Shown here piece by piece: positions 16,368 to 41,042 of a stretch of DNA of 41,042 nucleotides. This DNA comes from Acidobacteriota bacterium. Lineage in GTDB: Bacteria; Acidobacteriota; Vicinamibacteria; Vicinamibacterales; UBA2999. The stretch's first letter is position 1. Every line of letters begins with the position of its first letter. The notes beneath the pieces were generated by a model that was not told the DNA's origin, made no database searches, and worked only from the letters and a program-made list of their open reading frames with translations. The DNA is taken from assembly GCA_027622905.1 (NCBI GenBank), contig JAQBVV010000013.1, positions 1 through 41,042 on the forward strand, given 5' to 3'. The position numbers and the translations under genes were made by a program.

Positions 16368-18459
16368 TTATCCGGCTGCCTCGCGTCCCGCGGCCGCCTG
16401 TGCGGCGGTGATGATCTTGGCCTGCTGGGCATGGGGCACCTCGTCGTAGTGCGAGTACTCCATGTGATAGGAGCCTCGCCCGCCGGTCGCTGACGTCAGA
16501 TGCTGCTCGTAGGTCAGCATCTCCGCCATCGGCACCTGGGCGCGGATGATGGTCGTCGTGTCCCTGGCATCCATGCCGGCGATGCGGCCGCGGCGGCTGT
16601 TGAGGTCGCCCATGAGATCGCCGGCGAAGTCACTGGGCGAATACACCTCCACATCCATGACGGGTTCAAGAATGGTTGGCCTGGCCCGTGCCATCGCGTC
16701 CTTGAATGCCAGCGAGCCGGCCATCTTGAAGGACAGCTCGTTGGAATCGACCGGATGGAACGATCCGTCGAAGACCGTCGCCTTGAAGTCCACCATCGGA
16801 TAGCCCGCGAGGAAGCCTCGCATGCGCGCCTCCTGGATGCCCTTCTCAACGGCCGGGACGAACTGTCGCGGAATGGCGCCCCCGAAGATATCGTCCTCGA
16901 ACGTGAAGCCGCTGCCGCGCGGGAGTGGCTCGACGCGGATCTTGCAGTCTCCAAACTGGCCATGGCCCCCCGTCTGCTTCTTGTGCCGGCCGTGGGCTTC
17001 GGTTTCGGCGGTGATCGTTTCACGGTAGGGAATGCGCGGCGGTTTCAGGTTCACCGCCACGCCGAATCGTCGTTTCAGCTTGGCGACCGTGACCTCGATG
17101 TGTAGCTGCCCCTGCCCGGACAGCAGCAGTTCGTGGGTCTGGGGGTCGCGCGAGTAGCTGGCGCTGGGGTCTTCCTCCAGCAGCCGCTGCATCGCGGTAC
17201 TGATCTTGTCCTCGTCGCCACGGGTCTTCGGCTCTATGGCATAGGCGAGCACCGGCTCGGGGAAGGCGATGCCGGCGAATGACACCGTCATGCCCTTGTT
17301 GCCCAGCACGTCACCGGTGTGGGTTGGCCGCGGCGCCCAGGTCGCCGGCCTTCAGCGCGGCGACCTGGGTCTGGGTCTTGCCCTGCAACACGAGGAGGTG
17401 GCCCAGCCGTTCCGACGAATCGCGCGTCAGGTTGTGGGTGGTGGTGTCCGACGCCAGTGTGCCGGACACCGCGCGTAACATCGTGATGCGCCCGGCAAAG
17501 GGATCGGCGACGGTTTTCCAGGCGAGCGCGATGGGCGGTGCGTCGTCGGTTGCCTTGACAGTCGTCGCTTCGCCCGTCCCGTCGCCGTCATTCGACACCC
17601 CGGGGACGTCACGCTCCGCTGGTGAGGGCACATGGTCCACGATCACGTCGAGTAACGGCTGGACGCCGATGACGCGCAGGCCGGACGTGTACGCCATCGG
17701 ATACAGGCGGCCGGCGACGGTGCCCGCTCGAAGGCCCTCGACGAGTTGCTCCTGCGTCAAAGTCCCATCGGCAAAGTAGATCTCCATCAGGCGCTCGTCG
17801 CCCTCGGCCACCATCTCGACCAGTTGCTCTCGCGCCTCGGTTGCCCCAGCGACCAGATCTTCCGGGATCTCAATTTCGGTCATGGCTCCGCTTCCGTCCG
17901 CGAGGAAGGTGAGCGCCTTCATGCGGAGGAGGTCGACGATCCCGGTCCAGTCGCCCTCCGCGCCGATCGGTATCTGGATCGGCGCGATCTCCCTGGCGCA
18001 GCTCCGTCGGAGCGATTCAAGCGTGCGCTCGGTACTTGCGCGATCACGGTCCAGCCGGTTGACGACGACGATCCGCGGCAGCCCGAGCGCGGCGGCCTCC
18101 GCCCAGAGCTTCTCCGTCTGCACTTCAACGCCCGCGACCGCGTCCACGACGACCAGCGCACATTCGACGACGCGCAGCGCTGACCGAGCCTCGGTCAGAA
18201 AGTTGGCGACACCGGGCGTATCAACGATGTTGATCTTGGTCTGCCGCCACTCGGCGTGGGCCAGGCTGGCCGCGAGGGTGTGTTTGCGAGCGATGGCCTC
18301 CTCGTCGAAGTCTGTGATCGTCGAGCCATCGTCAACCAGGCCGAGTCGGGTTGCTGCGCCTGCAGCGAAGAGCATCGCAGAGGCGAGCTGGGTCTTGCCA
18401 CAGCCGCTGTGACCCACCAGGGCGACGTTGCGGATGTGTGCGGCGTCATACACCTTCAT
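16368..18459 (-). pseudogene. EF-G-like translation factor (FusA2 type), frameshifted
   Basis: Two minus-strand frames, 18459-17311 (382 residues) and 17309-16368 (313 residues), together match a full EF-G-like GTPase of about 695 residues. The first has G1 GHSGCGKT at residues 16-23, G3 DTPG and G4 NRLD. The second has the domain IV-V region, including RHKKQTGGHGQFGD and GFTFEDDIFGG. They meet at 17318-17325, where AACCCACACC reads ANPHR-stop in one frame and HTGDVLGNKG in the other. One extra base or two missing bases explains it. Start at 18459 has AGGAGG seven bases upstream. It is probably a paralog, with the main fusA beside tuf outside the window. Confidence 0.8.
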
Positions 18460-37281: not shown

Positions 37282-38162
37282 ACCTGCGCACGTTCCTTCT
37301 CCTTGGCGTGCTGGCGGCCGGAGCGGTTGGACTCCAGGCGGTTCATGAGCTCAACGGAGGCATGCCCGCGTCGACGACCGCGAACCTGTTGTACGTGCGG
37401 TCCCCCGACGCGATGAAGCGATTGGCGCTGTCGTACGATTCGCTGCTGGCCGACGTCTACTGGGTTCGGGCGATCCAGCACTACGGTACCACGCGGCTCT
37501 CGATCGATCCCACCACGCAGTTCGACCTGCTGTACCCGCTGCTGGATCTCACCACGTCGCTCGACCCCCACTTCACCGTCGCCTACTACTTCGGGTCGCT
37601 CTTCCTGGCGGAGCCACCCCCAGGGGGGCCCGGGCGGCCGGATCACGCGATCGCGCTCCTCGAGAAGGGGTTGGAGGCGTTGCCGGACCGGTGGGAACTG
37701 GCGCAATCGATCGGGTTCGTCCACTACTGGTGGCTGCAGGACTACGACGAGGCCGCCGCGTGGTTCACCAGGGCATCGGAGTTCCCGAACGCGCCCATCT
37801 GGATGGCACCGCTGGCCGCGGTGACGCTGGCTGAAGGCGGGAGCCGGGAGTCGTCACGCCTGCTCTGGCGCGAGATCGCGCAGGGCGTCGACGACGAGTG
37901 GTTTCGTAACGAGGCCGCCAGGCGACTGCGGCAGCTCGACGCCATGGACCACCTTGACGGGCTCACTGGCGCGGTGGCAGCGTTCGAGCAACAGACGGGA
38001 CGGACGCCATCCGATTGGGAGGAACTGTGGCGCGCGGGGTACCTGCCTGGCGTGCCGGTCGATCCGACAGGCATTCCGTATCGCCTCGAATCAGGCGTGG
38101 TCGGCCTCGGAGACGGGTCGCCGCTCAGCCCGTTGCCGACGGGGCCGGCCCAGATCCGGTGA
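37278..38162 (+). CDS. TPR-like periplasmic protein of the pilus cluster
   Basis: The 294-residue product begins with a hydrophobic signal or anchor, NLRTFLLLGVLAAGAVGLQA, at GTG 37278, which overlaps the permease stop. The middle has TPR-like helices (AIALLEKGLEALPDRWELAQ; DEAAAWFTRASEFPNAP) and the C-terminus has GVPVDPTGIPYRLESG. It occupies about the position of PilG in Myxococcus, but no sequence match to PilG is claimed. Function unknown. Confidence 0.75.
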   Translation: MNLRTFLLLGVLAAGAVGLQAVHELNGGMPASTTANLLYVRSPDAMKRLALSYDSLLADVYWVRAIQHYGTTRLSIDPTTQFDLLYPLLDLTTSLDPHFTVAYYFGSLFLAEPPPGGPGRPDHAIALLEKGLEALPDRWELAQSIGFVHYWWLQDYDEAAAWFTRASEFPNAPIWMAPLAAVTLAEGGSRESSRLLWREIAQGVDDEWFRNEAARRLRQLDAMDHLDGLTGAVAAFEQQTGRTPSDWEELWRAGYLPGVPVDPTGIPYRLESGVVGLGDGSPLSPLPTGPAQIR

Positions 38163-38929
38163 CGACACTGCCGCTGGTACCTGTCCTCGCGGCGTTCGGC
38201 CTGCTCGTCGGCAGCTTTCTCAACGTGTGTATCCATCGCGTGCCGCGACGCGAGTCGATCGTCTGGCCGGCGTCGCGCTGTACCGAATGCGGTCGGCACC
38301 TCGCCTGGTACGAGAACGTCCCGGTGCTGAGCTGGCTCGTGCTTCGCGGTCGCTGCCGCACGTGCGGTGCCGGGATCTCGTCGATGTACCCGCTCGTCGA
38401 GCTGACGACGGCGGTGTTGTTTGCCGCCGGCGCCTGGGTGTACGGGCCGTCCGGGCTGCTGGTCGTGCGCCTCGTCTTCGGATGCGCGCTCATCGTGCTG
38501 TTCGCCATCGACCTCCGGCACCGCATCCTGCCCGACGTGATCACGCTTCCGGGGATTGCGGTCGGCTTCGCGGCGAGCTGGTTTCTGCCTCCCGGGTGGA
38601 TCTCGTCGGCGATCGGTATCGTCGCCGGCGGGGGCATGCTGTTCGCCATCGCCGAGGCGTACTACCGCGTGCGCGGCCAGGACGGTCTGGGGATGGGAGA
38701 CGTCAAGATGCTGGCGATGATCGGCGCGTTTCTGGGCTGGCCGCTCATGTTCCTGACGCTGGTGTTCGCGTCGTTTGCCGGATCGATTGTCGGAGTGTCG
38801 CTGATCGCGTCGGGACGGGGCAGCATGCAGGCGGCGCTGCCGTTCGGGACGTTTCTGGCGGTGGGTGCGATCGCCGCGGCCGCGGTGGGCGATCCGATCC
38901 TGGCCTGGTACCTCGCTTTTTATCGGTAA
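38159..38929 (+). CDS. pilD: Prepilin peptidase / N-methyltransferase PilD
   Basis: The 256-residue inner-membrane enzyme cleaves and methylates prepilins. It has the N-terminal cytoplasmic CxxC pairs CTECGRH and CRTCGAG, catalytic aspartates in FAIDLRHRILPD and in GLGMGDVKML, and about seven or eight membrane segments. GTG 38159 overlaps the previous stop; the frame further upstream is not PilD. Its substrates include the prepilin at 33472. Confidence 0.95.
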   Translation: MTTLPLVPVLAAFGLLVGSFLNVCIHRVPRRESIVWPASRCTECGRHLAWYENVPVLSWLVLRGRCRTCGAGISSMYPLVELTTAVLFAAGAWVYGPSGLLVVRLVFGCALIVLFAIDLRHRILPDVITLPGIAVGFAASWFLPPGWISSAIGIVAGGGMLFAIAEAYYRVRGQDGLGMGDVKMLAMIGAFLGWPLMFLTLVFASFAGSIVGVSLIASGRGSMQAALPFGTFLAVGAIAAAAVGDPILAWYLAFYR

Positions 38930-38950
38930 CCCGGCGCGGGCGCCTCGTGC

Positions 38951-39223
38951 CTACTGCGTCCACTCCTCCGGTACCTGTGCAGCCCGAACCTGTGTCAGCA
39001 ACCGCGTGAGCGCGTCGGACTGGTCGCGCGCATCCTGCCGGAGGCGGTCGAGGGTTGCGGCGATCGTCTCACGCTGCTGGGTCGAGGCGGGCGTGTGCGG
39101 CGCCGCATCGATCTGGCGGAGACGGGTTTCAGCGGTGGCGATGCCGGCAGTCGCTCTCGCGAGGCGTGTCCGCACATCCCGCGCCCTCGCGCGCCAGGTC
39201 GACTCATCGCGCTGCGGCTGAAC
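38951..39223 (-). pseudogene. Antisense fragment with coiled-coil tail
   Basis: This minus-strand frame ends at 38951 and encodes STWRARARDVRTRLARATAG then a long arginine/glutamine-rich helix and a VPEEWTQ end. Heptad-like spacing suggests coiled coil. It resembles in pattern the last, partial gene of the window (ADWRKRIVDARQAK). Upstream in the frame, sequence overlaps the PilW-like gene and is nonsense. It looks like a C-terminal remnant placed backwards. Identity is modest, so origin is uncertain. Confidence 0.45.
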
Positions 39224-39224
39224 G

Positions 39225-39863
39225 ATGACCGATACGGTCTTTGGTCTGGCGAAGCCTGCGCTGGGCATCTTTGACGCGCAGCCGGAACTGGCGGACATGC
39301 GGCAGCGGCTCCGCGTCGGTATCGATGCGCTGGCCCACGATCTGCTGATGGCCAACCCCCCCGTCATGCCCTATCGCGTCGGCCGGCGACAGCCCGATCC
39401 TGCACGCGGTGTGTTCTTCCGTCCGGATACGATCAGCGTCCTGTCCGTGCCGTGGGATGGTGCGGCGGTCGAATCCCATACTTACTATCTGCGAAGCGAT
39501 CCGTCGGCCGGCGAGTTCCAGCTCCGGCACTATGACGGAGCCGCCACGGATCGACCGGTGCTCGACCACGTCGTGCAACTGCGTTTCGAATACTTCGGCG
39601 CCAATCAGGTCCCGCTCGACGCGGCCGTACTCGGCGGCGGTCCCTGGTACCCGGATGCCGCCGACAGTCATCGGTTCGACGCCGACCTGCTGGACATCCG
39701 GATGGTGCGCGTGACACTGCGCGTGCAGGCGGCCAGCGCAGCGCTGCGCGGCCCGGCAGGCCCGCTGTTCGTGCGTGGCGGCACCGCCCGAGCCGGGGAG
39801 CGCTATCTGCCGGACCGCGAGATCCGGTTCACCGTGACGCCGCGGAATCTCGATGGTGCGTGA
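39225..39863 (+). CDS. PilW-like minor pilin lacking its prepilin N-terminus
   Basis: The 212-residue product reads FGLAKPALGIFDAQPELADMRQRLRVGIDALAHDLLMA from residue 6 on (abbreviated as FDAQPELADMRQRLRVG), as in the soluble part of PilW-like minor pilins. The expected GFTLxE signal and membrane helix are missing. ATG 39225 is the only early start, and the sequence just before it is an unrelated antisense fragment. A junction at about 39212-39233 has probably removed the front of the gene. It overlaps the next gene by 11 nt. Confidence 0.7.
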   Translation: MTDTVFGLAKPALGIFDAQPELADMRQRLRVGIDALAHDLLMANPPVMPYRVGRRQPDPARGVFFRPDTISVLSVPWDGAAVESHTYYLRSDPSAGEFQLRHYDGAATDRPVLDHVVQLRFEYFGANQVPLDAAVLGGGPWYPDAADSHRFDADLLDIRMVRVTLRVQAASAALRGPAGPLFVRGGTARAGERYLPDREIRFTVTPRNLDGA

Positions 39864-40452
39864 GGCAGACCGCGGCACGGCGCTCGTGGTCGTGATGATG
39901 GCCGTGGCGCTGCTGACGGCGCTGGGGTCCGCGCTGACGCTGGCCACGATCACCGAGACCGCGATCGCCGCCAACTACCGCGACGCCACCGAAGCGTTCT
40001 ACGCGGCGGAGGCCGCCGTCGAGTTCGCAAAAGGGGAAGTCGCCTCGATGTCGGATTGGAGCGAGATCGTCGTGACGCCAGGGCGGTCGGCGTTCGTCGA
40101 CGGACCGCCGGGCGGCCGGCGCACGGTCGGGGCCACGACGGTCGACCTTCGTGCCGCCACGTCGGATGTCAACGCGGCGGCGCCCGGAGCGTCCGGCGCC
40201 ACCGAAGCCGACTGGCTGTTGTACGCCTACGGCCGTTTTCGGGACCTCGTGCCATCGAGCCCGCGTCGTTCGCAGATCTACGTGGTGGTGTGGGTGGCGG
40301 ACCGTTCAGAGGAGGAGGCCTCCACGCCGCAGGTCGTGTCGATACTGGGGCAGGCCTACGGTGGGCACGGGAGTCGTAGGACGGTTGAAGTGATCGTCGA
40401 GCGCGACAGCGCCGGACTGGTGCAGACGCGAAGGTGGCGGGAGTGGCGCTAG
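39853..40452 (+). CDS. PilX-like minor pilin-associated protein
   Basis: The 199-residue protein begins with a basic start and then DRGTALVVVMMAVALLTALG, a PilX-type N-terminal helix, followed by NYRDATEAFYAAEAAVEFAK. Such AYYAAEAG-like motifs mark the PilX_N family. Remaining 130 residues are globular. It overlaps the PilW-like gene by 11 nt. The role would be tip or assembly protein of the pilus (inference). Confidence 0.8.
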   Translation: MVREADRGTALVVVMMAVALLTALGSALTLATITETAIAANYRDATEAFYAAEAAVEFAKGEVASMSDWSEIVVTPGRSAFVDGPPGGRRTVGATTVDLRAATSDVNAAAPGASGATEADWLLYAYGRFRDLVPSSPRRSQIYVVVWVADRSEEEASTPQVVSILGQAYGGHGSRRTVEVIVERDSAGLVQTRRWREWR

Positions 40453-40508: not shown

Positions 40509-41042
40509 ATGAAGTCTCTCCTGGCCCATGTCGCGACCGGGGTGTGTCTGCTGGTCTGCGTTGCGACGGTCTCGGCGCAGTCGCTGGGCGACCTGGCGCG
40601 TCGGGAAGAGGAGCGGCGGAAGACCCTCACGACAGCGAGCAAGGTGTACACGAACCAGTCCCTCCGTTCCGAGGGGGCGCCGGCCGGTCCGGTGGCTGGA
40701 TCGTCGCCGGCACCTCCACCGGCCGAATCTGCGGCCGCCACTCCCGCCGACGGGGAGCCTGGGTCCGATCCGGACACTGATGTGGAAGGCGGCGGTCCCG
40801 GGGACGGGCCTGCCGGATCGGCGCTGACCGAGGCTGACTGGCGCAAGCGGATCGTGGATGCCCGCCAGGCGAAGTCGCGCGCGCGGATCCTCGCCGATGC
40901 GCTGCAGAGCCGCATCAACGTGCTTGCCGCCGACTTCGTCAATCGTGACGACCCGGCGCAGCGGGACGTGGTGGCCGACGACCGGCAGAAAGCGCTGGCG
41001 ACACTCGCCCGCGTCACCGATGAGATCGAACAGCACAGGCAG
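40509..41042 (+). CDS. Secreted coiled-coil protein, C-terminus outside window
   Basis: The frame from ATG 40509 is open to the window end (178 codons). It has a signal peptide ending in SAQS, then LGDLARREEERRKTLTTASK, a proline/alanine-rich linker at about 58-105, and helical segments with ADWRKRIVDARQAKSRAR. The LARREEERRK motif recurs in proteins near acidobacterial pilus genes as far as I recall (recollection, not searched). Its role is unknown. The C-terminal end is missing, so length cannot be given. Confidence 0.75.
   Translation, partial: MKSLLAHVATGVCLLVCVATVSAQSLGDLARREEERRKTLTTASKVYTNQSLRSEGAPAGPVAGSSPAPPPAESAAATPADGEPGSDPDTDVEGGGPGDGPAGSALTEADWRKRIVDARQAKSRARILADALQSRINVLAADFVNRDDPAQRDVVADDRQKALATLARVTDEIEQHRQ

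Follow-up and report, generated by a model that had tools for sequence, protein, structure and literature searches.

The DNA between positions 38930 and 39237 raises the question of how a gene for a PilW-like minor pilin came to begin directly in the soluble part of its product, beside the antisense end of a coiled-coil gene. The stretch analysed here (the window) is the whole of one contig, C93, of 41042 bases, and belongs to a draft, metagenome-type assembly of 3.43 Mb in 239 contigs that is 97.4% complete and 4.1% contaminated. A preliminary description had proposed either a deletion with inversion or an assembly join at 39212–39233. By comparison with relatives from the same family, among them G009 (JACPPO010000043.1), G013 (MEKU01000046.1) and G022 (JACQZV010000198.1), we conclude that the segment represents no new kind of gene but a deletion scar of an ordinary sort, or possibly an assembly gap, within a locus of known type.

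The PilW-like gene (39225–39863, plus strand), as delimited by its open frame, the alignment of relatives and hydropathy, encodes only the soluble part of such a protein, 212 residues, and its ATG at 39225 lies inside a seam. No Pfam or NCBIfam model matches the product, and the name PilW is given from the position of the gene and the prepilin starts of its relatives, just one of seven of which (L024) passes the cut-off of the prepilin model TIGR02532. The nearest relative, in G009 (locus L022), is 67% identical across residues 4–210; its open frame is 277 residues long, with GFTLGELLVATAITLGLMAS preceding the shared part in frame. An N-terminal hydrophobic helix is present in all eight aligned relatives, and six of them match the prepilin-type pattern, which is degenerate in L023 and L029. 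In contrast, neither a membrane-like stretch nor a prepilin helix was found in any of the six frames of window positions 38930–39330, where the best mean hydropathy over 19 residues was 1.28, whereas the PilW proteins of three relatives reached 2.03, 3.01 and 2.61. Of what is expected of a functional PilW, the window protein lacks the class III signal (GFxxxE type) and the hydrophobic N-terminal helix, as had been remarked before any relatives were compared; it keeps the soluble family domain encoded between PilV and PilX, resembling the G009 protein and adjoining an intact PilX-like gene (39853–40452, plus strand; PF14341, E = 1.8e-11).

In five of eight relatives compared (G009, G011, G013, G022 and G026), two minor-pilin cassettes lie head to head. 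The leftward cassette consists of FimT', PilV', PilW' and PilX', followed by a coiled-coil gene, CC', in three of the five (G009, G013 and G022); the rightward one consists of PilV, PilW, PilX and a second coiled-coil gene, CC. To their left lie PilD and a kinase with PAS, HisKA and HATPase domains, and to their right a sigma-54 response regulator, which we take, from position and by analogy, to be PilS-like and PilR-like respectively. The other three relatives (G002, G003 and G015) have the right cassette, with the left one replaced by other pilin genes or by nothing recognised. The left part of the G009 island is on a second contig, C14, with PilD and the kinase at the contig end. There, 241 bp following the kinase (L101:1–241) match none of the other loci compared and, tested as a 34-residue peptide, no Pfam or NCBIfam model; that they belong to an insertion sequence is only a guess. 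CC' of G009 starts a different contig, and the kinase/CC' boundary may be disturbed in that genome as well.

Against this order, the window shows two seams within 300 bp. On the left, PilD, the prepilin peptidase, is intact (38159–38929, plus strand; PF06750 and PF01478) and aligns with its relatives to its end. Only 21 bp (38930–38950) then separate the PilD and CC' stop codons, at the place where the relatives carry the kinase (∼1.25 kb). This first seam is placed from gene order in relatives, a search of the assembly for the kinase and sequence comparison; the preliminary description had overlooked the loss. The kinase follows PilD in all seven close relatives for which PilD is visible, and in 11 of 16 such loci of a wider set that overlaps the first, the five without it being more distant loci. 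By eye, bases 38925–38938 resemble the overlap of PilD and kinase in G009, which suggests that a few kinase bases may remain.

The minus strand from 39232 to 38951 then encodes the final 93 residues of CC' and its stop codon, the start and the signal-peptide end being gone. CC' of G009 matches this stump by tblastn at 50% over 92 residues (E = 3e-24), and at 51% (E = 7e-23) when searched against the whole assembly, so that the antisense coiled-coil end first noticed in front of PilW is indeed what it appeared to be. Compared directly, the two truncated pieces show little of the resemblance proposed between this stump and the gene at 40509 (E = 0.098), but it becomes clear through full-length CC' of G009, which matches window CC at 36% over 134 residues (E = 5e-11). 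Window CC (40509–41042, plus strand) is identified by the gene order of relatives as the end of the rightward cassette, and is truncated by the contig end. CC and CC' (also L022:11–652 and L022:5812–6477) belong to a secreted-looking coiled-coil family with a start like AQSLGDxARxEExRR that closes the minor-pilin cassettes of relatives, where the CC copy usually stands immediately before PilR; among Pfam and NCBIfam models, none names this family.

At the second seam (39222–39237), located from the G009 alignments and the DNA itself, likeness to CC' gives way to likeness to PilW. The DNA match to G009 CC' extends to 39231 and that to PilW begins at 39234–39237, and G009 carries 4132 bp between the corresponding points. 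The six bases ATGACC (39225–39230) can be assigned to either side, and a short microhomology here, with at most ∼10 bp shared, is possible. GC content at third and other codon positions neither sharpened the junction nor separated the CC' frame from its neighbours. The flanks are collinear with those of relatives, the intervening genes are missing and the joined ends keep their ancestral orientation, the pattern left by a deletion. The interval first proposed for the event is therefore accurate (∼39231), and a deletion, or a join that mimics one, stands; the inversion does not. It had been invoked for a coiled-coil fragment antisense to its neighbours, but CC' is antisense to the surrounding genes at the corresponding position in G009, G013 and G022, and we reject an inversion as very improbable.

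Could the missing genes lie elsewhere in the genome? A search of the assembly with the prepilin model TIGR02532 found four places: window PilA, a PilA-like gene on contig C235 and, on C201, two GspG-like genes. A search with PilX' of G009 matched window PilX alone; one with its FimT' gave four weak places, the best at 33% on C80, and no FimT of this island; and a kinase search returned only a 33% paralogue on C119. PilV, PilV' and PilW' were covered through the prepilin model. Within this assembly, then, all these searches gave the absence expected of a deletion and, with the gene order of relatives, they uphold the initial observation that FimT and PilV are missing. Contig C201, 3.2 kb long with two prepilin starts, was considered as a home for the lost genes and rejected, as were the C80 match and the C235 gene, which are other loci. 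The C201 genes (L045:1–3239), GspG-like pseudopilins with an Ig-like-domain protein, apparently form a separate pseudopilin cluster.

Other parts of the system are retained. PilR is found as a 71% match at the end of C133, which seems also to bear a NadB-like gene, as downstream in G009; the right flank is therefore in ancestral order. PilM is present above its model cut-off, and we read a match on C225 as a PilT-like gene. A PilB-like gene (C189, L096:5294–7338) has a break in its last third that divides it between two reading frames; the score of the gene falls below the model cut-off, one that none of 14 control genomes reaches.

We next consider the age of the loss. Both stumps have open frames, and neither shows a clear speed-up relative to neighbouring genes. 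The ratio of branch lengths, window to G009, was 0.93–2.09 for PilW over six outgroups (2.09, against G003, being the sole high value and the others at most 1.39) and 0.77–1.40 for CC' over three, compared with 0.75–1.31 for PilD, 0.75–1.15 for an ABC permease, 1.09–1.77 for a TPR gene and 0.85–1.54 for PilX. We also ran a simple simulation of neutral change, for which we chose the base frequencies: at 0.1 substitutions per site 17% of runs left both stumps open, and at 0.3 this fell to 0.7%. Open frames without a clear speed-up imply that the loss either is recent relative to the divergence from G009 or arose during assembly. The CC gene had a ratio of 2.27–3.52 over six outgroups, unlike its neighbours, a value that its variable middle may inflate.

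That the gene order of relatives, the missing genes and the seams are as given here, and that no inversion is needed, we hold with little doubt. We further propose, with a probability of roughly 0.6 for the statement as a whole, a recent loss in the organism itself, within a conserved minor-pilin island of the type IV pilus, of which 38930–39237 is the scar. The ancestral order would have been PilD and the PilS-like kinase; CC', PilX', PilW', PilV' and FimT' on the minus strand; PilV, PilW, PilX and CC on the plus strand; and PilR. One loss would have taken out the kinase, starting near the PilD stop codon and ending near that of CC'. The other would have removed ∼4.1 kb, as measured in G009, with one end within CC' and the other midway along the PilW helix. 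Both could stem from illegitimate recombination at short homology, either as a single complex event or as two simple ones. The headless PilW would be neither processed by PilD nor inserted into the membrane. By analogy, a cell with this scar would be left with PilX as its one complete minor pilin from the island and, lacking FimT, PilV and PilW, probably could not prime pili.

A real deletion is favoured by the ancestral order and orientation kept at both losses, by the limited shared sequence (at most ∼10 bp) and by the pilB frameshift, the split gene being consistent with a pilus system that is falling out of use. The support from pilB is weak because the EF-G gene of the window contig is split as well, which may reflect general sequence error, and few non-pilus genes were checked for frameshifts. 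This EF-G gene (16368–18459, minus strand) is split over two frames near 17310, and is a pseudogene or a sequence error. Other points, too, count against a deletion. The stumps are undecayed, as an artefact would also leave them, and no second genome with the junction turned up in the contig scan or the family search, a scan from which records nearest to the window's genome may have been omitted. The exact 21-mer of the junction was confined to loci from the window contig. The preliminary description had named, as a refutation, a relative that shares the arrangement and has a working start for PilW; none turned up, and the CC'–PilW join occurs in none of 25 scanned contig loci; relatives that retain the minor-pilin genes have the missing block in place.

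Alternatively, the organism may possess the whole island, the kinase and the 4.1-kb block having been omitted by the assembler, in scaffolding or in gap closing, and the remainder joined in the right order. We think this unlikely, though well worth keeping in mind. The draft, contaminated and fragmented nature of the assembly, its further split genes and the undecayed stumps would all fit; a 4-kb piece could have stayed unbinned, and the G009 assembly likewise breaks at the kinase/CC' boundary. Such an error nevertheless requires two separate misjoins within 300 bp. The junction is single-copy in the assembly and has no 15-mer in common with the other loci compared, and neither a long shared word at the seams nor a further copy of the joined pieces, either of which could drive a misjoin, was seen, although the lost sequence itself is beyond inspection. 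The part of the sequence inspected contains no run of N, and both gaps exceed usual short-read inserts. A mixture of strains, with the deletion in part of the population and the contig following that variant, would suit the undecayed stumps, but the assembly shows a single version only, and we regard this as quite improbable. We also consider very improbable a headless PilW selected as a working soluble protein after loss of its helix. Its open frame and neighbour-like branch-length ratio agree with that idea, but a recent deletion accounts for the open frame equally; the helix is missing from none of the eight aligned relatives, the start codon falls within the seam, and inspection by eye reveals no obvious ribosome site upstream of it.

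Should the deletion have taken place in the organism, one member of the family has freshly lost the pilus priming set that its relatives retain, which offers a natural test of whether the pilins that are left can function in its absence. Should it be an assembly join, it shows how several genes can silently go missing from a draft genome that is 97% complete. Neither reading alters existing knowledge of pili. A more speculative extension, which we consider doubtful, is stepwise shedding of the type IV pilus (kinase, both minor-pilin sets and a pilB frameshift) with the major pilins, PilD, PilM, PilT and PilR still kept, for example under pressure from pilus-binding phages, or else a pilus run with PilX alone, lacking FimT, PilV and PilW. 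One study indicates that phages using pili as receptors can select for pilus loss (PMC13170266); such selection might also have acted on this organism.

Our literature search found no paper on the minor-pilin islands of this bacterial group. The islands of G009, G013 and G022 are like the window in gene order from PilD to PilR and in PilD, PilX and CC, at 45–80% identity, and differ in keeping the kinase, FimT', PilV', PilW', PilX', a whole CC', PilV and a PilW with its helix. In Myxococcus xanthus (PMC7541494), minor-pilin/PilY1 clusters 1–3 similarly provide multiple sets of FimU, PilV, PilW and PilX for one pilus, and PF14341 recognises PilX. Each of those clusters, as described there, also contains PilY1; in the islands of the relatives none was recognised on inspection of the gene order, and CC proteins stand instead at the end of the cassette.
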